Virus record (IMG/VR): IMGVR_UViG_3300042331_000239 | Location: 1 to 25,292 of that record | Direction: 5' to 3' (one strand) | From: a virus | Length of the DNA: 25,292 nucleotides | Shown here: piece after piece, positions 11,859-24,650 of the stretch | How positions within the stretch are numbered: position 1 is the stretch's first letter | Layout of the letters: each line of letters begins with the position of its first letter | Notes under the pieces: generated by a model | Told to the model about the DNA's origin: nothing | Databases searched by the model: none | The model's input: the letters and a program-made list of their open reading frames with translations, nothing else | Translations under genes and position numbers: made by a program

Positions 11859-12710
11859 ATGCCCGACCAGAAAATATCCGCTCTCCCTGCCGGTGCAGTC
11901 ACCGCCGCAAGCATCCTGCCTGCGGTCAATGGCGGCGTCACGCAGAAGGTCACGGTCCAGCAGCTGCTCGACATCGTCGGGACGGTCGAAGGCCCGGCTG
12001 GCCCGGCTGGAGCGGCTGGCCCAGCTGGAGCGGACGGACAAGCTGGTGCCGATGGGCCTGCGGGTGCTGACGGCCCAGCTGGCCCAGCGGGCGCTGACGG
12101 CCCCCCGGGCGCGGATGGCCCGGCTGGCGTGGACGGCGAGTCGGTCACTGTCTTCGAGCAGGACACGACCCCGACCGCACTGCGCACGGGCGACCTGTGG
12201 CTTGAGCCTGTCACCGCATCGGCTGCTGGCAAGGGTGGCCTGACGCTTGCGGAGGTTGAGGCGGTTGTCGCTGACAGCCTCTCGAAGCTGCCGACGGGGA
12301 CCACTGGCGGTCTGACCTCCGCCGAGGTTCAAGACATCGTTGATGCGGCCATCGCCAAGCTGCCGCAGCCAGAGCCTGTCGTTGCTCCTCTGGGATGGCA
12401 GAAACTCACTGGGGCGACTGCATTTGGCGTGACAGTCAACGCATTTGCCAGAGCCTTCGGTGGGTCGATCCACATTCGCGGCACATACACTGCCCAGTTT
12501 GGCTTTCTCCCGGCCCAGAAGATTGCCGACCTGCCAGCCGGTGTGCCGCGCCCTGCCTTTGACTACACGGTGTTGGTCTTTGGAACCGAGGACGGATCAA
12601 CGGCTCCGCTTCCCGGCAAGTTGACCATCAAGACCAACGGCGAGTTGGCTCTGGACGCGCCGAACTGCAACACGGTCGTCTTCGACGGCATTTCAATCCC
12701 GGTGGAATAA
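11859..12710 (+). CDS. Collagen-like tail fibre / adhesin
   Basis: This is a 283-residue fibre. Residues 1-42 (KISALPAGAVTAASILPAVNGG, then KVTVQQLLDIVG) match an N-terminal motif I recognise from phage tail-fibre proteins. Residues 45-92 are 16 uninterrupted Gly-X-Y triplets. A GDLWLEP motif and two short TxAEV-type helices follow. Residues 173-283 form a beta-rich C-terminal domain ending VVFDGISIPVE, shared with the genes at 13067 and 13740. Collagen-like parts in phage fibres form trimeric rods, so this is probably a trimer with the C-terminal domain as tip. The start codon follows the previous stop with no gap and the end overlaps the next ATG by one base. Confidence 0.82.
   Translation: MPDQKISALPAGAVTAASILPAVNGGVTQKVTVQQLLDIVGTVEGPAGPAGAAGPAGADGQAGADGPAGADGPAGPAGADGPPGADGPAGVDGESVTVFEQDTTPTALRTGDLWLEPVTASAAGKGGLTLAEVEAVVADSLSKLPTGTTGGLTSAEVQDIVDAAIAKLPQPEPVVAPLGWQKLTGATAFGVTVNAFARAFGGSIHIRGTYTAQFGFLPAQKIADLPAGVPRPAFDYTVLVFGTEDGSTAPLPGKLTIKTNGELALDAPNCNTVVFDGISIPVE
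11991..12134 (+). repeat. Collagen-like Gly-X-Y tract, 16 triplets
   Basis: Sixteen consecutive Gly-X-Y triplets use mainly GPA, GAD and GAA units. The encoded DNA is repetitive (GCTGGCCC and CAGCTGG words), so length variation by slippage or recombination is likely. Pro sits mostly in the X position, so this does not depend on hydroxyproline in Y. Confidence 0.9.
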
Positions 12711-13066: not shown

Positions 13067-13750
13067 ATGCCCGCACCAGATCGAACCCCTCCCGCACAGC
13101 CGTACTCCCTTGCGATCAACCCGCTTCGGGGCATCGTGGGCTACTACTCCGCGGAAGAGACTGATGCCCTGCTGGCCGATATCCCGTCGGGCGCCGCGGG
13201 CGACCTCTCCGGGTACGCCAAGTCCGAAGACCTGCCCGCTGTCTATGAGCAGGCTGCGGAGCCTGTTGGCAAGGACGGCGACCTGTGGCTTGGCCCGGAG
13301 GTCGTTCCCGATGCCGCCCCCGTCACGCAGCCGTCGGTTGAAGTCCAGCCGCAAGCGAAGTCGATGACCGAGCCAGAGGTTCGGGAGATCGTCCGCACAA
13401 TGATCGCTGGTGGGAAAACTCCACCACCCGACTTCGATTGGACGCCTCTCGTGTCCCGGCAGGGGTCGGGCGTGATCGAAGCCAAGCAAACCAACGGTGT
13501 CCTCCTTCTCAGAGGCGAACTGGTTTTCACCTACTCGTCCCCGGGCACCTACACGACCGTCCGCACTCTCCCCGCCAGCTTGCCGAAGCCGCTGGTGGAT
13601 TGCAGCGCGGTGGTCACCGGCAAGGAAAACAAAGTCGCCTTTCGGTTTGTGTCGGTCACCCTGACCACTTCTGGTGACCTCAACGTGGTGGCGAGTGGCG
13701 GCAAGTTCACTCATGTCACATTCGACGGGATGATCGCCTATGTGTGCTAA
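13067..13750 (+). CDS. Tail fibre-family protein with the shared C-terminal domain
   Basis: This 227-residue protein has GAGGAG before its ATG. The N-terminal 60 residues are linker-like (YSAEETDALLADI), then GDLWLGP, then a polar linker, then a helix leading into PPPDFDWTPLV and a beta-rich domain ending VTFDGMIAYVC. That C-terminal part aligns by eye with the end of the 13740 gene (PPPDIDWTWMV...ATFSGIRW) and, more loosely, with the 11859 gene. A recent tandem duplication of the domain with divergence is the simplest explanation. The likely role is a host-binding tip or its chaperone. It overlaps the next gene by 11 nt. Confidence 0.7.
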   Translation: MPAPDRTPPAQPYSLAINPLRGIVGYYSAEETDALLADIPSGAAGDLSGYAKSEDLPAVYEQAAEPVGKDGDLWLGPEVVPDAAPVTQPSVEVQPQAKSMTEPEVREIVRTMIAGGKTPPPDFDWTPLVSRQGSGVIEAKQTNGVLLLRGELVFTYSSPGTYTTVRTLPASLPKPLVDCSAVVTGKENKVAFRFVSVTLTTSGDLNVVASGGKFTHVTFDGMIAYVC

Positions 13751-15371
13751 ACAGCTTTACGTCAAGTCAAACGGTCAGTGGGTTGCTGCTCTTGGCGGCG
13801 GCTCTGCGGACACTGCTGGACTCGCGACAGAGCAGTTCGTCACCGACGCTATTGCGGCCATCCCGGCAACGGACCTGACGGGTCTGGCTACCCTCACTGA
13901 CTTGAACGACGCTCTGGCTACGATCCCAGAGTCGGCCATTACCCTCCATGAGGGTGCGGTTCCTGACGCTGGGGCCGAAACGCCCAGTGCGCTGGACGAT
14001 GCCTTTTCTGTTCTGTCTGACGGCCTGCACTACTTCAAGGGCGTTGGCACCCTTGTGTCCATCACACGGCAGCAATACCAGACCACGATCACGCTCACCG
14101 GCCAATTGAGTTCCTTCGCCAAGATCGTCAAGTCGGAAGCGGGTCTGCCCACTCCCCAAAATCCGTCCATGATCGTCATGCAGACGGCTGAAGGCCAATG
14201 GCTCAAGCTGACCAGCGATGAGTTGAACAAGCCTTTCGGCAATCCCCAGAGGGTGGACATCTTCGCCCTGACCGGCGGCGGGGCTGACCTGACCAACTAC
14301 TACGACAAGCCGGAAGCCGATGATCGATACGCCCGGAAGGTAGACAACACGCAGAACTTCGTTGCCAACGCTGTGCTGGCGAAGGGCTACGCGTTCGGTG
14401 ACGCCGTAGGCCCAAACAATCCCGGCTTGGTCTACACCGATACCGGCGAAGGCTACGGCCCCCGCTTGGTGCTTGATACACCGGCTGGCGTGGAACTCAT
14501 CCCGTATCAGTCAGACTTTGAGCCGATCAAGGAGCGTCTGGCTACGCTGGAGAGCAAGACCGCTCCGACCGTTGACCTGTCCCCCTACATCACTCAGGTT
14601 GATGCCGACGCACGTTATGGTGCCCGCACCGCAGAAGCCGTGTCCCTCTTGCAGGTCCAGCTTCAATCAGTCTTCGATAGCATCTACACACGACCCGAAG
14701 CTGATGAACGGTACGTCCTCAAGTCGGACCTGACCGCAGTCTGGGCAACCAAGGCGGATGTGTTTGGGTACGTCGATACCAAGACCTACACGAAGGCTCA
14801 GGCCGACGCGAAGTTCCTGACGCTGGTCGATATTGGCATCCTCGTGCAGAAGGACGAACTGGCCCCGTATGCAAAGACGGCAGACACCTACACGAAGCCG
14901 GAAATCGACTCAAAGCTGGCGGTTATCAACCCGATTGCCTCGCCTTCGATCAACGATCCTGCCTTGGCCGCTTTCAAGAAGTCTGTGTTGGATGAGGTGA
15001 AGCTGATGCTTGTGGGTGGTACGAAAATGCCACCGCCCGACATTGATTGGACATGGATGGTGCGCATGGATGGGGCGAGGGAGTCTGTCTCTACCGAGAT
15101 TCAAGCGAGGATGATCGGTGGCTTCATCGAACTCAAGGGCACCCTGTCATTCGGTGCTGGCATCGGAGAGTGGGTTCCGCTGCGTCTGCCACCTCAGTTC
15201 CCGCTTGCAGAACTTGAATCGAAGTACGCCCTTGCCATGCGGCTTGTTGGCACGGCTGTCACCTACGGATTCTGCACGATTCACCAGAATAATCGTGACA
15301 TCAAAGTAAGTCCCGGTGCGAGATCGAACGAGGCAACATTCTCTGGCATTCGATGGAAGGCGGCTTACTGA
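13740..15371 (+). CDS. Long tail fibre with repeated heptad-like motifs
   Basis: This 543-residue protein starts CAKQLYVKSNGQWVAALGGG, the shared N-terminal cap. Between about residues 185 and 390 it has repeats typical of phage tail-fibre shafts: YYDKPEADDRYARK, YTRPEADERYVLK, TYTKAQADAKF and TYTKPEIDSKL, separated by coiled segments. The C-terminal 115 residues hold the shared PPPDIDWTWMV domain, ending TFSGIRWKAAY. Such shafts trimerise, and the last domain likely binds the host or caps the trimer. It overlaps the gene before by 11 nt and ends in TGAC followed by the next ATG one base later. Confidence 0.8.
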   Translation: MCAKQLYVKSNGQWVAALGGGSADTAGLATEQFVTDAIAAIPATDLTGLATLTDLNDALATIPESAITLHEGAVPDAGAETPSALDDAFSVLSDGLHYFKGVGTLVSITRQQYQTTITLTGQLSSFAKIVKSEAGLPTPQNPSMIVMQTAEGQWLKLTSDELNKPFGNPQRVDIFALTGGGADLTNYYDKPEADDRYARKVDNTQNFVANAVLAKGYAFGDAVGPNNPGLVYTDTGEGYGPRLVLDTPAGVELIPYQSDFEPIKERLATLESKTAPTVDLSPYITQVDADARYGARTAEAVSLLQVQLQSVFDSIYTRPEADERYVLKSDLTAVWATKADVFGYVDTKTYTKAQADAKFLTLVDIGILVQKDELAPYAKTADTYTKPEIDSKLAVINPIASPSINDPALAAFKKSVLDEVKLMLVGGTKMPPPDIDWTWMVRMDGARESVSTEIQARMIGGFIELKGTLSFGAGIGEWVPLRLPPQFPLAELESKYALAMRLVGTAVTYGFCTIHQNNRDIKVSPGARSNEATFSGIRWKAAY

Positions 15372-15372
15372 C

Positions 15373-16971
15373 ATGGCACTGGCATACTACTGGACGGGCA
15401 CGAAGTGGGAAGAACTCTCCTCCGGCGGCAGCACGCCCGGTCCCGCGGGTCCAGCTGGCCCAGCTGGCAAGGACGGGAAGGACGGCGCGGATGGAGCGCC
15501 GGGCCGCGACGGGGTCGATGGTGCGCCCGGTGCCCCGGGGCGTGACGGCGTGGATGGCGATGACGGAGCGCCGGGCAGGGACGGCGTGGACGGAGCAGCT
15601 GGCCGCGACGGTGTTGACGGGGACGACGGCAAGGATGGTGCCGCCGGAGCCAAGGGCGACAAAGGCGATCCCGGCCCGACCGTTGTTTCAGCCGACGCGG
15701 GGAACTTCGCCAAGCTGGGGACCGACGGCCACCTGATCGTCAAGCAGTCCGAACTGGACGACCGCTACGTCCTCGTCGCTGGCGACACCATGACGGGTCC
15801 GCTGGTGGTGACGGCGGCTCCGGGCAAGGAGGCCGACTGCCTCACGCTCCTGACCGACAGCGGCGACTTGCTGTACATCGGGGCCACCGAGAACCCCGGA
15901 ACGCTAGGGGCCGATGTTGTCATCTCCACGATCAACGGCGGCGTCCGCAGCACCCTCATCACTGGCACTGCCGCAGGGCAGCTTGTTCTTGGCGAGGACA
16001 GAGGGGAGCGGCTGGGGCGAGTGTTTGTGGACGAATCGCGGTACGGTTCCGCGTATTACGCGCGCACACAGTTCCAACTGCCAGCGGGCTTGTTTGTCCT
16101 GCCGGATGCCACATCTTCCCCGGGCATCAGCAATTTTTTTGCAGTGGCGTATCCGACCGTGCCGGTCGCGTCCGCTACCTCCGCAACTTCGGTCAGCGGT
16201 TTCTCCGCAATTTGCCTGCGAAATGCCGTGGCGGGCGATGCTGGTTCCATGTCAACAAACATAAACGGCATCGGGGTTCGTTACGGCCATAGCAACACCG
16301 ACGCCGCTTTCACCGGCTCAACGGTCAGCGTCTGTGGCATCCAGTTGCAGGGGGAAGTCCGAACCGGCACGGTCACGAACTACAGCGACATCCTGATTGC
16401 TACGACGGCAACCGGCGGGACGATCACCAACCCGCGCAACGCAATCCTGCAAGTAGACCCGGCTTCCCGCAGCGTGTTCTTGGGGCGGATGGGCATTGGG
16501 CAATACCCAAGTGCAACGCGGGCGTTGGACGTTACCGGCGACGTTCAGTTCATTGGCAATTTCACGGTCACCACTGGCACGACGGTCAGGTTCCCGGCCC
16601 GCACGGTCAACTCCGACTGCCTTGGGCCGCTCACCCTTGCCATCCGCAACACAGACACGACCATTGCCCTGACCGATGCCAGCCGGGCAATCCTCAACGC
16701 TAACACCACGGCGGGCACGACCACCTATACGCTGCCCGACAACACCGCCGCCCCGATACCGCTTGGGTCCGTCTTCCGAATCTACGACGTTTCGCGGCTG
16801 GGCACGACCGTCCTACAAGCCGCCCCGGGTGTTCAGCTTTTCTGGAGGACGGCCACCGGGACGCAAGCTGGCGGCGCGGCGGCAGCCCTGACGCTTCCCG
16901 GCGAAATCAACTTTGTTGAACTCATCAAGACCGGCGCGAACAACTGGTACGCATTCGGCAACACGTTCTAG
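15373..16971 (+). CDS. Collagen-like tail fibre with beta-helix-like shaft
   Basis: I place the start at 15373 (532 residues) because it gives the shared cap ALAYYWTGTKWEELSSGG and follows the previous stop by one base; an in-frame ATG at 15316 lies inside the upstream gene. Residues 23-100 are 26 Gly-X-Y triplets, rich in GRD, GVD and GDD. Then come SELDDRYVLVAGDTMTGPL, a known fibre motif, and a long Ser/Thr/Gly-rich shaft with no Cys-rich parts (residues 150-440). The C-terminal 90 residues (TLPDNTAAPIPLGS...NNWYAFGN) match the usual distal end of phage fibres. It is the last and second largest of the five fibre genes and the best candidate for the main receptor-binding fibre. Confidence 0.85.
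   Translation: MALAYYWTGTKWEELSSGGSTPGPAGPAGPAGKDGKDGADGAPGRDGVDGAPGAPGRDGVDGDDGAPGRDGVDGAAGRDGVDGDDGKDGAAGAKGDKGDPGPTVVSADAGNFAKLGTDGHLIVKQSELDDRYVLVAGDTMTGPLVVTAAPGKEADCLTLLTDSGDLLYIGATENPGTLGADVVISTINGGVRSTLITGTAAGQLVLGEDRGERLGRVFVDESRYGSAYYARTQFQLPAGLFVLPDATSSPGISNFFAVAYPTVPVASATSATSVSGFSAICLRNAVAGDAGSMSTNINGIGVRYGHSNTDAAFTGSTVSVCGIQLQGEVRTGTVTNYSDILIATTATGGTITNPRNAILQVDPASRSVFLGRMGIGQYPSATRALDVTGDVQFIGNFTVTTGTTVRFPARTVNSDCLGPLTLAIRNTDTTIALTDASRAILNANTTAGTTTYTLPDNTAAPIPLGSVFRIYDVSRLGTTVLQAAPGVQLFWRTATGTQAGGAAAALTLPGEINFVELIKTGANNWYAFGNTF
15439..15672 (+). repeat. Collagen-like Gly-X-Y tract, 26 triplets
   Basis: Twenty-six uninterrupted Gly-X-Y triplets include the unit GRDGVDG four times and GVDGDDG twice, with near-identical DNA between copies. 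Asp replaces Pro in many Y positions, so the tract is strongly acidic, unlike the GPA-type tract at 11991. Internal copies suggest growth by unequal recombination. Confidence 0.9.
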
Positions 16972-16980
16972 GAGTGAGTC

Positions 16981-17157
16981 ATGGCCGACGAGAAAGAAAA
17001 CGCTTGGGCGGATGAAATCCCCGATCCCGCCATCGCTGACGCGGAGTGGGAAGCAAAGATCGCCAAGGACAAAGCCGAGGCCGACGCCGAAATGGCTCGC
17101 ATGAACGCTTGGCTCAAAGAGCAGGAAAAGAACAACTACGGGATGCCGACTCCATGA
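16981..17157 (+). CDS. 58-residue acidic helical protein
   Basis: This short intact frame starts after AGGAGTGAG and ends in an ATGA overlap with the adaptor gene. The product (MADEKENAWADEIPDP, then a Lys/Glu/Ala helix and MNAWLKEQEKNNYG) is charged and probably one long helix. Its position next to the adaptor and clear start signals make it likely real. It has no recognised family and could be a small assembly factor. Confidence 0.6.
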   Translation: MADEKENAWADEIPDPAIADAEWEAKIAKDKAEADAEMARMNAWLKEQEKNNYGMPTP

Positions 17158-18116
17158 GTATCTACACCGTCACCGCGCACGACGCACTGGACTACCTCCT
17201 GCAATCGACCGGCGGCGGCGCGCAGGATCAGGAGCATCGTGTGCTTCGCTCTGCGATTCACCACAGCTACCGGGATGTGACCCACGCCAAGAGTTGGCTG
17301 TGGTTCGTCACCGAGTCGTCCGTCACCATCGTTGCGGACAAGAACACCTACCTGCTGCCGGTGGATTGCGTGGACATCGACGCGCTCACGCTCCCCGACC
17401 GCACCACAGTGACCTCCTACATCACGCCGACCGAGTGGGTGCGGCTGGAGCAGAACCGGCTCACTTTGGGAGAGCCGGTTTACTGGACGGTTATGAAAGC
17501 GACGGACCCCAAGGCTTACGACCGCTGGGAACTGCGCATCGCTGGCAAGCTGCCAGCTGGCACCGAACTGCGGTACACCTACCGCCGCCGCCCCAAGCCG
17601 CTGACGCTGATGGGTCAGGAGACGCAGTGCCGCACGGGCTACGCTGACGTTGCTGGCACCGATGTGACGGGAAAGAACACCGCATTCCCTGTCCGCAGCG
17701 TGGGTGCGATCTTCCGCGTTGGCACCCCGGCGAACTACCCCGAGCCGCTGTCGGGCATGTACCCCTACACGGCGCAGAGCAAGATCGCCGAGCGGGCCGA
17801 CGGAAACGGACTGACGCTCGAAGACGACATCGGCACGTTCACCGACTGCCGCTACGTCATCTCCGACCATCTCGACGTTAGCCCCAACATGTACACGGCG
17901 CTGCTCACCGGGGCGGAGTTGTGGCTGGCCCGGTTGCAGGGGAAGAACATCGAGGGTGCGGTCGGGCTGTACCAGCGCGACCTCAAGCTGGCGATGGAGC
18001 AGGACGTAGTCGCGCCCGTGTCTGGCCGACGCGCTCCATACGACCGCGTGCCCGACGCGACGAGTGCCACCTACGCCGGATCGTACTCGTCGCTTGGACC
18101 GGACCAAGGAGCGTAA
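17154..18116 (+). CDS. Head-tail adaptor (tail tubular protein A-like)
   Basis: This 320-residue protein starts in an ATGA overlap; an upstream in-frame ATG at 17046 is ignored because it lies within the previous gene. The pattern fits adaptors that sit under the portal in short-tailed phages: an early helix pair (HDALDYLLQSTGGG, VLRSAIHHSYRDVTHAKSWLWF), a strand-rich middle with SSVTIVADKNTYLLPVDCVDI and ELRYTYRRRPKPL, and a C-terminal helix (LLTGAELWLARLQGKN, AVGLYQRDLKLAMEQD). Its position directly before the nozzle gene is the same as in the T7-like order (gp11 then gp12). Family membership rests on pattern and order, not on a full alignment. Confidence 0.72.
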   Translation: MSIYTVTAHDALDYLLQSTGGGAQDQEHRVLRSAIHHSYRDVTHAKSWLWFVTESSVTIVADKNTYLLPVDCVDIDALTLPDRTTVTSYITPTEWVRLEQNRLTLGEPVYWTVMKATDPKAYDRWELRIAGKLPAGTELRYTYRRRPKPLTLMGQETQCRTGYADVAGTDVTGKNTAFPVRSVGAIFRVGTPANYPEPLSGMYPYTAQSKIAERADGNGLTLEDDIGTFTDCRYVISDHLDVSPNMYTALLTGAELWLARLQGKNIEGAVGLYQRDLKLAMEQDVVAPVSGRRAPYDRVPDATSATYAGSYSSLGPDQGA

Positions 18117-18399: not shown

Positions 18400-21321
18400 A
18401 TGCTCGTCCGCACACTGCCGACCAGTACACCGGCCACGGTAGCCGTTGGCGCGCACGGCTACGGCTACATCTTCACGGGCAACGGCAACAAGCCGCAGCG
18501 CGTCGATCTGACGGACGGCACCTGCGTGGACATGGGCATCCCTGCCCCGTCGGACCCGCCGTCCGTCACCCCAACCGGCGATCCGAAGCTGTATGTGGCG
18601 CGGATCGACGTTGTGGACGGCGGCAACATGTACCACGAGGCTCCGCGCGTGACGGTCGGCACGACGACCAACCGCGGGGCGGAGCCGTGCAAGGCGCGGG
18701 CTTATCTCCGCGGCAACGCCGTCTCCGAGGTCGTAGTGCTTGATCACGGCAGGGGGTTCGCCGGAACTCCCCCGGTTGCACTCAGCGACACGCACTCCAC
18801 CGGGGCGCAGCTGACAGCTGTCCTAGACACCACCGCGCCGCAGGACAGGATCACGGCGGTCGAGTCATCGCAGCCGTCCACTTACCCGTGCTTGCCCTTC
18901 TGGTCGCCTCTGGACAGTCAGGTTTGCGCCGGTTGGTACGGCAGCCAGTTTTGGGGCGACGGCCTGTCGTGGTCGATGGGTCTGCCCGACGGTCACACGA
19001 TAGCTTTTGCTGGCCGCAGGGGCAGGTTGCTGGACTTCGACATCACCACTGCTGGTGGCACTCCTGCGAAGGTGCGAGTCACTTTCGACACGGTGGCGGT
19101 CCCGGCCATCGGCGGTGCCAACGCTCCCGTATCGCCGCCCGTCATCGTTTGGTACTGCACCCGAATCGTCGAAACCCAGATCATCGACGGAGGCTCCGGT
19201 TTCACGGGGGCCGTAGAGGTTGTCATCGAGGATGGCGGTCGCGGCCCGAGCCTTGGGTGCTGCGGCAGCCCCGGGTGCAGCGAAGCTGGCCTGCCGCATG
19301 TGGTGCGACTGCTCACGCAGCAGGAGGCAGTGCTGCGGGGAGTGGCTTCCGCCACCACGCTCTACCCGATCAAAGAGATCACCGTCGCCAACGGCGGGCA
19401 GCAGTACAACGTGCCGCCGTCCGTCACCGTCGCCGGTGCCGGTGGTGCCTCGCTCACGGCGGAGGTGAAGGACGGGGCCATCACGGCGATCAAGATTCTT
19501 GACGGGGGTCTGTACGCCACGCCTCCCGATGTGCTGGCTATCGAGGGTGGTGCAACCGCCGTCGCCATCACGCGGCCCCACATCCGCGGCAAGTACGACT
19601 GCTTCTACCGCTATGTGGACGACACCCCTGCCTCGCGCGGTGGCCCGATACCTTCCAGCCTGTCGCCGGTCGCAACCGTGGACGCAGGCGATGGTGCGGG
19701 AGAACTCGTCTGGGCGGGCATCCCCGACACCATCACCGCGGGCGACCGGCAGCTGAAGGTGGAGTACTGGCGCACGACCTCAAACCAGAGTTACACGATC
19801 TACCGTGTGTACCAAGCCGGGGACGTTGGCTTCGTGGACGACCTGACCGACGCCGAGGTGACCGACTACGACCGCCCCGGGTATCTGGCAATGTCCATCC
19901 TTCTGCCCAACGGCGAACTGAATGCCAACCGATTCGGGGTGCCGCCGACAGACAGGTCGGTGACCGTCATGTATCAGGATCGCCTCTGGTACGCCTGCGA
20001 CACCAACGGAGACGAGCCGAACTCTCTTGGGTTCTCCGAACTCAACGAGCCAGAGTCCTGCCCGGATATCAACGAGATCATCCTCCAGACCAACGTCAAG
20101 GGCGACGACCACATCACGGCGCTGATCCCCTACGGCTCATCGCTGGGGATCATGCAGACACGCCACGCCTACCGGCTGTCTTATGTCTCACAGCCGATCA
20201 TCGATGCGAACATCCAGATCGCCGCGTTCCGCGGTTGCCTCAACCAGCGGTGCTGGGACGAGTATGAAGGCATCATCTACGTCATGGATAACGACGGGGT
20301 CTACGCCCTCGACCAAGGCGGTGCCGTCCAGCCGCTGTCGCTGGGCCTCGACCAGCTGTTCCGCTACCGGATCGACTTCTCGAAGTCCCGGTGGTTCAGC
20401 GTCGTGGCCGACCGCCGGGCCGGGTGCCTGCGCGTGAGCGTGCGCTATGACGACGATGGCCCCGGCGAGTACCCGACGCGGCAGCTGTGTTTCGGCTTCG
20501 ACGCCAAGGGCTGGTGGGAGGAGCGATATCCCACGCCGCTGGTCGGCGGGGCGAGCCTGCGGGGCATAGACGGCAACTACAGCTGCTTGTACGGGACCAC
20601 CGACGGCGCGGTGTACGCGCTGAACTCCGGCAACACCGATTACGCCGACGGGACGATCACCGACGTTACCGTGACCAATGCTGGCTCTGGGTACAGCAAG
20701 CCACCAGCGGTCACCGTGACCGGGGACGGGACAGGGGCGGTCATTGAGTCTGCCATCTCTCCTGACGGAACGCTGCTGGGGCTGTATGTGCGGCACGGCG
20801 GCTACGGCTACACGAACCCGCAGGTGGTCATCGCTCCGCCAGAGGACGGCACGACCGCCACGGCTACCTGCGTTGCCAGTGATGGCCCGGTCGGCACCCA
20901 CTGCTGGATCAAGACCGGCAACATGGAGTACCCCAACGACAGCCTCGCACCCCAGCCGCCCGACGGGTCGCGCAACGTCGCCATGCTCTTCACGCCGACG
21001 AACGGGCCGTGCGATCTCAAGCTGCGGATGTACTACAACAACTTGCCCTACCCGCGCGTCAACGTGGTCCGTCGCGACCGCGGGACGGGGGTTGTGCAGG
21101 ACGACCGGGAGCCAGCCACCACGCTCGACATGGACGCCGGGCGGCTTCCCGACAGCGTGTCCTCCGGCGTGTGCAGGGCGCTGTTCACCGAGAAGACCGT
21201 AGACGACTTCCGCGGCAACGACCGGCATGTGGCGGCGGAACTCTCCACTGTGCGTGGCGCAGCTGGCCGCGTCGTTATCCACCAGATCGACATGTTTGGC
21301 GTACCCACGCCGGGAGCCTGA
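18400..21321 (+). CDS. Tail nozzle-like protein (tail tubular protein B-like)
   Basis: This is a 973-residue protein, the largest here. It begins AHGYGYIFTGNGNKPQRVDLTDG and has propeller-like motifs through the middle (DRLWYACDTNGD, HAYRLSYVSQPI, GIIYVMDNDGVYALDQGG, GNYSCLYGTTDGAVYALNSGN), as expected for the nozzle that closes the tail tube. Inserted are beta modules of the type ITxVTVxNxGxGYxxPP followed by a second Gly-rich half, around residues 66-142, 255-280, 323-385 and 751-825. A Cys cluster (GCCGSPGCS, 286-294) sits in the third region. A C-terminal beta part (TLDMDAGRLPD...VVIHQIDMFG) ends it. It lacks the expected N-terminal segment, which is encoded separately at 18120. Confidence 0.72.
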   Translation: MLVRTLPTSTPATVAVGAHGYGYIFTGNGNKPQRVDLTDGTCVDMGIPAPSDPPSVTPTGDPKLYVARIDVVDGGNMYHEAPRVTVGTTTNRGAEPCKARAYLRGNAVSEVVVLDHGRGFAGTPPVALSDTHSTGAQLTAVLDTTAPQDRITAVESSQPSTYPCLPFWSPLDSQVCAGWYGSQFWGDGLSWSMGLPDGHTIAFAGRRGRLLDFDITTAGGTPAKVRVTFDTVAVPAIGGANAPVSPPVIVWYCTRIVETQIIDGGSGFTGAVEVVIEDGGRGPSLGCCGSPGCSEAGLPHVVRLLTQQEAVLRGVASATTLYPIKEITVANGGQQYNVPPSVTVAGAGGASLTAEVKDGAITAIKILDGGLYATPPDVLAIEGGATAVAITRPHIRGKYDCFYRYVDDTPASRGGPIPSSLSPVATVDAGDGAGELVWAGIPDTITAGDRQLKVEYWRTTSNQSYTIYRVYQAGDVGFVDDLTDAEVTDYDRPGYLAMSILLPNGELNANRFGVPPTDRSVTVMYQDRLWYACDTNGDEPNSLGFSELNEPESCPDINEIILQTNVKGDDHITALIPYGSSLGIMQTRHAYRLSYVSQPIIDANIQIAAFRGCLNQRCWDEYEGIIYVMDNDGVYALDQGGAVQPLSLGLDQLFRYRIDFSKSRWFSVVADRRAGCLRVSVRYDDDGPGEYPTRQLCFGFDAKGWWEERYPTPLVGGASLRGIDGNYSCLYGTTDGAVYALNSGNTDYADGTITDVTVTNAGSGYSKPPAVTVTGDGTGAVIESAISPDGTLLGLYVRHGGYGYTNPQVVIAPPEDGTTATATCVASDGPVGTHCWIKTGNMEYPNDSLAPQPPDGSRNVAMLFTPTNGPCDLKLRMYYNNLPYPRVNVVRRDRGTGVVQDDREPATTLDMDAGRLPDSVSSGVCRALFTEKTVDDFRGNDRHVAAELSTVRGAAGRVVIHQIDMFGVPTPGA

Positions 21322-21324
21322 CGC

Positions 21325-22158
21325 ATGGTGCTGACATACACAGCTGGCAAGCTGGAGCAGAGTTTGATCGAGGGGGGCGTTCCTCCCTTGGCGGCGAACT
21401 CCGCGATGAATGCCATCGGCAACTGCTCGATGCCGCTGGCTCACCGTGGGCCGTTCGCGCTCGACTACACCCCGCGGGACTACCGCACCGTCACACCCGA
21501 GTTGCGGAAATATCGCTTCCCAAACTTCGACTTCTCGCCGTCGGAGGGCGCGCGCATCGGCCCTCGCGGATCGGCACCCCGCGAAGAGGTGATCGACCCG
21601 GAGCCGCCACGCGAGCCGTATCAGGCGCGTCCTGTGTTCGACCCCGAGGACGGAGACGGCGGCGAGCAGCTGCGGGAGAATCTCGTTGGCGGGGAATTCA
21701 TCCGCGTTGACAAGATCGCCCGCAACCGGGTGATCAACCTCCGCTCGAACTTCCGCCGGATCGGTCAGTTCTGCCGGTTTGGCGCGTTCCAGATCAATGG
21801 CGGCTCGATCCGCACGGCAATCAAGCCCGGGTCCGAGCAGTACATCACGCTCGAAACCAAAGACGACGGAGCGGACATCGTGATCTCCGCCGGGCTGAAG
21901 GCGGTCAAGACCGTCCGGGTGATCACCGGGGCGAAGGTCGAGAACAACGCTCTGGAGTTTCTGTGCAGCAACGTGGTCGTCCTCAAGGAAGACGCCACCG
22001 CCAGCATCGTGATCCCACTGAAGAAGACCACCTACCTCACCGGGGGCGCTTTGGAAGCCAGTGGCCTGACGTTCCCGCGAGAGGCGACTCACTTCCTCGC
22101 CGGGACGACAGAGGCTGCCGACCCTGTCGTGATCGGCGCAGTGGACTGCGTGGTATGA
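21325..22158 (+). CDS. Unknown virion-associated protein
   Basis: This 277-residue protein starts three bases after the nozzle stop. The N-terminal 60 residues are mixed, residues 60-110 are Pro/Arg/Asp-rich and probably disordered (SEGARIGPRG, EPPREPYQAR), and residues 125-277 are a strand-rich domain (FIRVDKIARNRVINLRSNF, FGAFQINGGSIRTA, DIVISAGLKAVKTVRVIT, SIVIPLKKTTYLTGG). No known catalytic motif is visible. A location between the nozzle and the Cys-rich protein makes it a tail or fibre-collar component by context. It overlaps the next gene in an ATGA. Confidence 0.6.
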   Translation: MVLTYTAGKLEQSLIEGGVPPLAANSAMNAIGNCSMPLAHRGPFALDYTPRDYRTVTPELRKYRFPNFDFSPSEGARIGPRGSAPREEVIDPEPPREPYQARPVFDPEDGDGGEQLRENLVGGEFIRVDKIARNRVINLRSNFRRIGQFCRFGAFQINGGSIRTAIKPGSEQYITLETKDDGADIVISAGLKAVKTVRVITGAKVENNALEFLCSNVVVLKEDATASIVIPLKKTTYLTGGALEASGLTFPREATHFLAGTTEAADPVVIGAVDCVV

Positions 22159-24020
22159 GTCTCCTAAAGCAGGGCATGAACCTGTTGCGGAAGGGCGGCA
22201 GCCTGCGGCTGGCGGTGCAGGGTTGCATCGATGCGTGCTGCGTGAAGAAGTGGAAATGCACAACGGAGACGGAATGCGAGGAGTCCACCGCGGGCACCTA
22301 CGATACCGAGGCTGACTGCATCGCAGCTGCTCCGGTGGACTGCGGCCAGAAGTGGGCCTGCACGGCATTCGATGTGTGCGAGATATCTGCCGCTGGAATC
22401 TACACCTCCGAGGCCGACTGCCTCGCGGCAGCGTCGTTTGATTGCCGACTGAAATACAAATGCATCTCGACGACGGAGTGCGAGCTTTCGCACGATGGAA
22501 CCTACGATCCCGCTTTGGGAGGTGCCTACGTCCTCTGCGTGCAAAACGCCTACTACGAATGCGCCCCCAAGGGGTGGTCCTGCACCGCCTCTGACAAGTG
22601 CTACGAAACCGGGGGCGGCAAGTACACCTCCGAAGCAGCGTGCCTGTCGAACGCCCCAGCCGAATGCCCCGACTCCGGGGTTTGGCACTGCACTGCCCCG
22701 GATATGTGCGTGCAGTCCACTGTCCTTATTCCTGTGCCACCGGGTTCCGGCTCTGCCTACTACGGCCAGTACCCTAGCGAGGCCGAATGCTTGGATACGG
22801 CACCAATACTGTGCCCTGATCAGCGCCCGAACGACCCCAGCTGGCAATGCATCGGCAAGACCAACAGCCTTACCTACGACGGCACCTGCACGTTCGGCGT
22901 TCACCCGACCTTCGTCGGCGGCGTCCCGACGTTCCAGCAGTGCAATCAAGTTTTCCGATGCGCATTCATCTATGTATGCGTAACGGACACCGTTTGCGCC
23001 CCGGTATTCAGCACCCCGGAAACCGGATACGCGACAGAGTCGGAATGCCTTTCTAACGCGCCGACTAACTGCCCTGTTTGGGCGTGCGTCTCCGAGGCGG
23101 AGTGCGGCCCGCGGGCAACCGGCCTTTCTGGTTCGCAGGGGTACGCCAGCAAGGCCGACTGTGAGGCGTCGGGGTTGACGTACTGCCAGACGGTGGACTG
23201 CTGCAAGCGCGACTCCAACGACGGCCCCGAGTACGCCGTGCAAATCACGCGCGGAGAATGCCTCAAGCCGCAGCCGTACCCGGTCTACAAGCCCCTTGGT
23301 CATGTGCTGGCCGCGGGCGAGGTGTGCCCCGGCAAGTGGGAATGCACGCACGGCACAGGCTGCGAGCGCACCTACGTTGGCACGGGATACGACAGCGAGT
23401 TTGAGTGCCTCGTCAGCGCCGACACTGATTGCGACGGAAAGCCCGAGCCGACGGTCGAGTGCTGCTATTGCAGTGTTCTCACCCTGCGGTGCAACGTCGC
23501 CGCCCTGACCGCCAGCGCCTGCGAGAACGGGCCGTACCCCGGCATTCCGCCGTCCGAGCAAATGTTTGTATCAGGCAAGCCCGTATTCGACCCGCGCTGC
23601 GAATGCAACCTGCTTTACTCCCGACCGCAGAACGTCGCGCAAGGCGGGATTCGGTCTGTGGCGCGCTTGAATCGCGGTGGCGGATACGACCCCGGCAACC
23701 CGCCGGAGGTGCAGGTGCTAGGCAGGGGAAGCGGAGCCAAGGTACGGGCTGTGGTTGCCTTAGACGGGGGCGTTGAGGAACTGATTCTGGAGTCGCGCGG
23801 CAGCAGGTATTGCGTGCCGTGCGCTGGTTTTCCGCACCCGGGCGGCTGCGAGACAAACGTGGAACTGCTGATTGACCCGCCGCCGGGCTGGGGAGGGGAC
23901 GCCGGATCGCGGGCAACAGGGGACGCCGTCAGCACCCGGTGCGATTCGGCACAGGGCTGCCCGCCAGACATTATTTCCTCCACCGCCACGCCGCCTCGCG
24001 TCAGCCCGCTCGCACCATAG
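22155..24020 (+). CDS. Cysteine-rich tandem-repeat protein, putative adhesin
   Basis: This 621-residue protein starts in the ATGA overlap; the upstream in-frame ATG at 21963 lies inside another gene. By hand count it holds about 55 Cys, close to 9 percent. Residues about 32-430 are roughly ten units of 33-50 residues with the pattern W-x-C, 5-6 residues, C, a G-x-Y, then (S/T)EA(D/E)CL..A, a few residues and C. Units lengthen and drift toward the C-terminus. Residues about 497-575 hold one G-G-GYxxGxPP module like those in the nozzle, and the end is Pro/Ser-rich. There is no signal peptide, so disulfides could form only after release from the cell. Repeat-rich proteins of this sort are usually ligand- or surface-binding; a receptor-binding role is inference. 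No close family is recognised. Confidence 0.78.
   Translation: MSLLKQGMNLLRKGGSLRLAVQGCIDACCVKKWKCTTETECEESTAGTYDTEADCIAAAPVDCGQKWACTAFDVCEISAAGIYTSEADCLAAASFDCRLKYKCISTTECELSHDGTYDPALGGAYVLCVQNAYYECAPKGWSCTASDKCYETGGGKYTSEAACLSNAPAECPDSGVWHCTAPDMCVQSTVLIPVPPGSGSAYYGQYPSEAECLDTAPILCPDQRPNDPSWQCIGKTNSLTYDGTCTFGVHPTFVGGVPTFQQCNQVFRCAFIYVCVTDTVCAPVFSTPETGYATESECLSNAPTNCPVWACVSEAECGPRATGLSGSQGYASKADCEASGLTYCQTVDCCKRDSNDGPEYAVQITRGECLKPQPYPVYKPLGHVLAAGEVCPGKWECTHGTGCERTYVGTGYDSEFECLVSADTDCDGKPEPTVECCYCSVLTLRCNVAALTASACENGPYPGIPPSEQMFVSGKPVFDPRCECNLLYSRPQNVAQGGIRSVARLNRGGGYDPGNPPEVQVLGRGSGAKVRAVVALDGGVEELILESRGSRYCVPCAGFPHPGGCETNVELLIDPPPGWGGDAGSRATGDAVSTRCDSAQGCPPDIISSTATPPRVSPLAP
22248..23439 (+). 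repeat. Array of about ten Cys-rich protein repeats
   Basis: Units begin with a Trp or Tyr before the first Cys (KWKC, KWAC, KYKC, GWSC, VWHC, SWQC, FRC, VWAC, and KWEC) and end with a Cys about 33-45 residues later. The first two (KWKCTTETEC... and KWACTAFDVC...) and the fourth are the most regular; the middle ones carry insertions such as IPVPPGSGSAYY. DNA identity between units is low, so this is an old array rather than a recent duplication. Confidence 0.8.
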
Positions 24021-24029
24021 GAGGTTGCA

Positions 24030-24650
24030 ATGGTCACAGTGCCAATCGAGGTTCTGCACGCCGCTGCTGCCGCCCGACCGGACGGGTATCTGCGGGACAT
24101 GTTCGACCACGCCACCATCATTCACGAGGGGAACCGGGTCGCCGCTCTGGAGTTTGACGACAAGGTCTACATGACCTTGCGCCAGAAGTACTCCAGCGAA
24201 CGGCGCATCCTCCACGAGTGGGTCAAGCGCGATGACGGCGCTCTGGTCTGCCATTGGTGCGGCAAGGAGTTGCCAGCTGGCGAGATACCCGGAGTTGCCG
24301 TGTGTCCGCTCCTCGCTGCGACCCGACCGCTTGACACGAACATCAAGCCGCCACCGCCCAGCCCCGAGGAGCAAGACCCCATCGGGCCGGGGACGATCCT
24401 CTCGCAGTCGCTTGCGCTGATCGGCATCACCGCCTCCCCGACCTGCGGGTGTAAGCGCAAGGCCCGCCAGATGAACGAGTGGGGGCCAGACGGCTGCGAT
24501 GCCCACATGCCCGAGATTCTCGCCGGGCTGCGGGAGGAGGCAGAGCGCCGAAAGATGCCCTTCGTCGAGCCTGTCGCCCGGCTTCTCGTGCAGCGCGCCA
24601 TACGGGTTTCTCGCAAGAAAAAGGCAGCTGCCAAGGCCGCGCCCCGGTAG
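24030..24650 (+). CDS. Unknown protein with two Cys clusters
   Basis: This 206-residue protein has AGGAGG ahead of its ATG. It contains CHWCGKEL at about 74-81, a single CxxC pair, and later CGCKRKARQMNEWGPDGC at about 137-154, a CxC pair with a third Cys. Together these may form one or two metal sites. A Pro-rich linker (IKPPPPSPEEQDP) separates them, and the C-terminus is a basic helix (SRKKKAAAKAAPR), suggestive of nucleic-acid contact. I do not recognise the family, though the GCKRKARQMNEWG-GC stretch resembles motifs recalled from other phage contigs; that memory is weak. It is the last gene before element B. Confidence 0.65.
   Translation: MVTVPIEVLHAAAAARPDGYLRDMFDHATIIHEGNRVAALEFDDKVYMTLRQKYSSERRILHEWVKRDDGALVCHWCGKELPAGEIPGVAVCPLLAATRPLDTNIKPPPPSPEEQDPIGPGTILSQSLALIGITASPTCGCKRKARQMNEWGPDGCDAHMPEILAGLREEAERRKMPFVEPVARLLVQRAIRVSRKKKAAAKAAPR

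Follow-up and report, generated by a model that had tools for sequence, protein, structure and literature searches.

The window, i.e., the whole stretch of DNA analyzed here, is a 25.3-kb viral contig (GC 64%) whose virion genes include one with a weak portal match, an SU10-type adaptor or head-tail connector (17046..18116, + strand; Pfam PF24175, E 9.8e-7), collagen-like fibre genes, and a 973-aa nozzle-like tail protein with GGxGY domains (18400..21321, +). The latter is followed by a conserved 277-aa gene (21325..22158, +) and then, with a start codon overlapping the stop of that gene (ATGA), by the gene for a Cys-rich protein, P0001 (22155..24020, +), in a position that we term the slot. 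Next comes a 206-aa partner gene (24030..24650, +), which is preceded by a ribosome-binding-like AGGAGG and codes for a C-terminal domain with the motif GIxxSPxCxCxxxAxxM. The adaptor and weak portal matches, together with the collagen-like fibre genes, support the description of the locus as a virion gene cluster in an earlier note made from the sequence letters. Among the fibre-like genes, which form a run on the + strand (11859-12710, 13067-13750, 13740-15371, and 15316-16971), the first and last contain collagen repeats, and the C-terminal parts of the middle ones are alike, of a PPPDxDWT type that looks duplicated (judged by eye). The virion module is bordered by a gene for a secreted-looking CAP-domain protein (794-1237, +; PF00188, E 4.7e-17).

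The earlier note had described P0001 as a protein of 621 residues with about 55 Cys in ten units, lacking a signal peptide and resembling no described family that it recognized. The ORF translation indeed gives 621 aa and exactly 55 Cys, i.e., 8.9% of its residues as against 0-3.8% in the other genes listed in the window, and inspection by eye likewise revealed no apparent Sec-type signal. The count of units was a fair one: of the Cys-rich units that we recognized, about 3 are degenerate and 8 are clear, and the clear ones can be aligned with invariant C, C, Y, C, and C in the pattern [W/Y]xC-x5-C-x(13-27)-C-x7-C. As the same units were recovered by an HMM iterated across the relatives described below, with E-values down to 1e-12, they lie well beyond chance. 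Along the protein (all coordinates on the + strand), an N-terminal anchor (MSLLKQGMNLLRKGGSLRLAVQG) leads into a three-Cys cluster, C24-x3-C28-C29, of a kind common among slot proteins (22155..22241), with a helix predicted at residues 15-28 in a full-length AlphaFold2 (AF2) run. Thereafter follow unit 1 (aa 32-63; 22248..22343; recovered by the HMM and as a hairpin plus helix by AF2), unit 2 (aa 66-97; 22350..22445; HMM and AF2), unit 3 with an insert ahead of its third Cys (aa 100-136; 22452..22562; HMM), unit 4 (aa 141-171; 22575..22667; HMM and AF2), and unit 5 with a long loop (aa 176-220; 22680..22814; HMM). A degenerate unit with four Cys, discerned by eye (aa 230-269; 22842..22961), precedes units 7 (aa 272-306; 22968..23072) and 8 (aa 308-344; 23076..23186), both found by the HMM; a second such four-Cys unit, again by eye (aa 349-391; 23199..23327), precedes unit 10 (aa 394-426; 23334..23432; HMM and AF2). 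A Cys-rich stretch with seven Cys and no unit clear to the eye (aa 436-484; 23460..23606) then connects to a C-terminal GGxGY-type virion domain (aa 492-586; 23628..23912; phrog_438, E 5.7e-6; phrog_701, E 4.2e-5).

For the units themselves the absence of a described family holds: searches of Pfam, NCBIfam, PHROGs, and the PDB returned no acceptable match for them. PHROGs matched P0001 solely at aa 492-586, the GGxGY domain of virion proteins, which also occurs in the upstream 973-aa protein and is 33-41% identical in P0001 to cyanophage virion proteins. The NCBIfam search of P0001 retrieved nothing, and a PDB profile search gave one weak match (E 0.5). In the Pfam scan we found no zinc-finger family match and, with E up to 1, no YTV profile match; it gave just a sub-threshold match to DUF1482 (E 0.0067, under its cut-off), which we treated as chance. 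Among viral models, the units matched hypothetical proteins of giant viruses, but weakly (E 0.015 at best). With P0001 alone as the query, no whole relatives were recovered in viral contigs, and named phages matched the GGxGY part only. An AF2 model of two window units, computed with 20 aligned tandem units as additional input, displayed two hairpin-plus-helix units (mean pLDDT 89, pTM 0.54), each predicted to combine a β-hairpin and a helix that bear two Cys apiece. A Foldseek search of the PDB with this predicted two-unit fold found no match, such that the unit would represent a new small fold. The full-length model was poor (pLDDT 48), too poor for a fold search, with units 1, 2, 4, and 10 again predicted as hairpin plus helix.

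We accordingly used the neighboring 973-aa tail protein as bait to find relatives and retrieved more than 100 viral loci (labeled L with a number below), almost all from metagenome-derived collections. In the first relatives that extended far enough, the nozzle-like and 277-aa genes were followed by a Cys-rich gene, in the position of the slot, in 10 of 10 cases. Later relatives added many further lineages with a Cys-rich slot gene, to a total of about 30 diverged lineages, as well as loci that are slot-less. Hence, the earlier suggestion that such a protein is unusual for a phage product does not apply within its group, across whose breadth the slot is repeatedly occupied by a Cys-rich gene, encoded among tail genes in a conserved position. 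The related phages without it show that the slot gene is not essential to this type of virion. In most slot-bearing loci, a CxC-containing partner domain is either fused to the slot protein or encoded by the ORF that comes immediately after the slot gene, and in the slot-less loci that we inspected the partner and slot genes are missing together; the partner gene shows weak zinc-ribbon and HNH-like matches.

The slot proteins range from 157 to 887 aa and from 11 to 93 Cys (n=35). In 34 of the 35, a three-Cys cluster of the C-x(0-5)-C-C type lies near the N-terminus, and this short anchor and cluster are followed by Cys-rich units or by other modules, e.g., GGxGY repeats in L039 and L036 or ATFNGSS-type repeats in L031, each after the same kind of three-Cys start. 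They thus combine a conserved N-terminal part with a swapped or diverged distal part, as do receptor-binding appendages. In the L028 slot protein (L028:11678-12775), which starts with CCCC, Cys makes up 81 of 365 residues (22%). Pairwise comparisons show that the slot gene mostly changes faster than the neighboring tail gene: slot and nozzle identities are 64 vs 97% for L085/L086, 69 vs 96% for L009/L010, and 64 vs 87% for L007/L010, and between the window and L003, L006, L007, and L012 they are 27-31% vs 50-60%. The pair L018/L027 is reversed, with 97% for the slot and 88% for the nozzle.

In a scan of species genomes, two Planctomycetota MAGs alone contained the tail protein. The partner domain or the units occurred in three Planctomycetota genomes, there on phage-like contigs; given these locations, the host is probably a planctomycete, as judged from a few MAG contigs that are possibly misbinned. 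An origin of the units as a common host domain is unsupported, for among host genomes they occurred in 1 of 392 Planctomycetota, on what is itself a phage-like tail protein. Two planctomycete genomes support the tail location independently of the main phage group. In one, lying outside that group, a CCC protein and a partner gene are encoded two genes after a tape-measure-like gene (L145:3966-4925, −); in another, a tail-hub-like protein contains three hairpin-plus-helix Cys units close to its C-terminus (L146:3441-5684, −). A tblastn search of named phages with the L089 tail protein found nothing, and our literature search retrieved no papers devoted to planctomycete phages; viruses of Planctomycetes are little described.

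A further regularity emerged from the Cys totals, counted on a single representative of each 90%-identity cluster. After the first relatives had all proved odd, an odd total was written down as the prediction for new members. In the first parity analysis, 28 of 29 clusters had an odd total (p=5.6e-8; here and below, the parity p-values are optimistic, as the lineages are related), as against 15 of 28 for the neighboring nozzle protein as a control. Coarser clustering retained the pattern, with 24/25 odd at 60% and 12/13 at 40% (p=0.0017). Held-out members alone gave 16/18 (p=6.6e-4). With L058 (even) and L144 and L145 (odd) added, 30 of the 32 Cys-rich members are odd (p=1.2e-7), a count in which L020 and L052 rely on the removal of a fused three-Cys partner domain, under a trimming rule that was made with an eye to parity; untrimmed, it becomes 28/32 (p about 1e-5, hand calculation). 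Inclusion of the Cys-poor L036 (odd), L031, and L039 (both even) yields 31/35 for all members (p=1.7e-6); these three low-Cys proteins and L058, of which 3/4 are even, were added after the parity rule had been stated, and L031 is even only when its first possible start is not taken. The exceptions are hence L048 (36 Cys), L058 (14 Cys), and the Cys-poor L031 and L039. At the level of the unit, the Cys count is even in 62 of 71 non-redundant units, and of the units with a Cys-Cys doublet 18/19 have an additional Cys outside the doublet, vs 8/52 units without a doublet that have an extra one (Fisher p=8e-10, from units that are not independent, those of one protein being paralogous). Barring these four proteins, Cys residues are thus gained and lost together in pairs, as in disulfide-rich repeats. 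Between L003 and L005 all 77 of 77 Cys are kept, with 14% of the other residues differing.

On balance, we lean toward P0001 being a tail-attached, disulfide-stapled, receptor-binding appendage of a short-tailed planctomycete phage, a reading in which we infer each of the virion location, the disulfides, the attachment point, the receptor binding, and the host. The slot, the modular build, and the usually faster evolution relative to the neighboring tail gene all agree with the role of a tail appendage. Under this proposal, the protein would be anchored to the tail, beside the nozzle, by its conserved N-terminus and the three-Cys cluster there; the middle would be a string of hairpin-plus-helix units with two disulfides each (sometimes three in relatives), which as stapled units may form a stiff, protease-resistant stalk; and an exchangeable end domain, here of the GGxGY type, would together with the units contact the host surface. 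Phage tail fibres and spikes likewise have a conserved N-terminal anchor, a variable distal part, a location among tail genes, usually faster evolution, and the GGxGY domain, the one part of P0001 that matches virion and tail families; unlike them, P0001 is built of Cys-rich hairpin-plus-helix units that match no known fibre family. Similarly, the GGxGY virion domains (PHROG 438, 701, 19630, and 2885) account for P0001 aa 492-586, but these families cover only about 95 aa of it and the Cys units lie outside them. We found no described counterpart of an attachment appendage made of disulfide-locked, Cys-clasped units such as the sequences would imply. A slot family of this kind would supply a receptor-binding candidate for a host group with reported Cys-rich surface proteins.

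Among the other explanations, the one that survives best, though we consider it unlikely, is that P0001 is a structural glue or decoration of the virion, in which intra- and interchain disulfides strengthen the tail or capsid with no part in receptor recognition. The slot does lie among structural genes, and an odd total leaves at least one Cys per chain outside intrachain bonds, which would permit interchain links. However, the spread of lengths from 157 to 887 aa, the swapped distal modules, and the usually faster evolution are typical of host-facing proteins.

Rather improbable, in our estimate, is a metal-binding repeat in which each unit holds zinc or another metal by four Cys, in the manner of Cys4 zinc fingers. 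The layout of a two-ligand hairpin followed by a two-ligand helix resembles that of the C2H2 finger, four ligands per unit would likewise keep Cys counts even, and phage proteins are synthesized in the cytoplasm, whose reducing character counts against the disulfide reading. Nevertheless, the likeness to the C2H2 finger is one of layout: the P0001 units are all-Cys with C-x7-C, gain extra Cys in pairs (up to six Cys per unit), and match no zinc-finger family. Moreover, in all seven window units that were parsed, the C-x7-C lies within a single predicted helix or at the helix end, where the two Cys of the motif should be too far apart to share one metal; the predicted secondary structure thus indicates, indirectly, that the four ligands would not reach a common ion. 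Of the earlier note's two options, disulfides are accordingly favored over a shared metal, given the parity, the paired gains, the Cys retention between L003 and L005, and the helical C-x7-C, and odd totals with paired gains would fit disulfide pairs plus an odd anchor. This parity across diverged relatives offers a simple argument for disulfides from protein sequences, testable by mass spectrometry. The disulfides of such an appendage are probably made only once the cell has lysed, for our search revealed no thiol oxidoreductase of phage origin: 18 related records contained no DsbA or thioredoxin family matches, which fits, and does not prove, the locking after lysis envisaged in the earlier note. 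If so, the slot family would show how a phage assembled in a reducing cytoplasm carries a heavily disulfide-bonded appendage.

A more speculative extension, which we regard as quite improbable, is that a functional thiol, free or interchain, underlies both the three-Cys anchor and the odd total; by it the appendages would be covalently cross-linked around the tail or exchange disulfides with Cys-rich proteins of the planctomycete wall; in the latter case attachment would amount to covalent thiol-disulfide docking. Planctomycete cell walls are reported to contain Cys-rich YTV proteins (PMC8567305). Like P0001, these are Cys-rich, and they belong to the cell surface of the probable host group; unlike them, P0001 has neither a YTV family match nor an obvious signal peptide, the likeness being one of Cys richness. 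They hint at a possible thiol-based interaction.

Least probable of all, and in our view highly doubtful, is a protein that is no part of the virion and works within the host cell or once released from it, e.g., an inhibitor or effector delivered at lysis, for which the indirect nature of the evidence for a virion location and the weak zinc-ribbon and HNH-like matches of the partner gene leave room, and against which stand the C-terminal GGxGY domain of virion proteins, the Cys repeats on the tail-hub-like protein of L146, and the constant position among structural genes.

Finally, NPLP or NPFP forms the C-terminus of many slot proteins despite their different distal modules (L002, L003, L006, L007, L009, L010, L011, L019, L041, L042, L085, and L086); the C-terminus of P0001 is VSPLAP.
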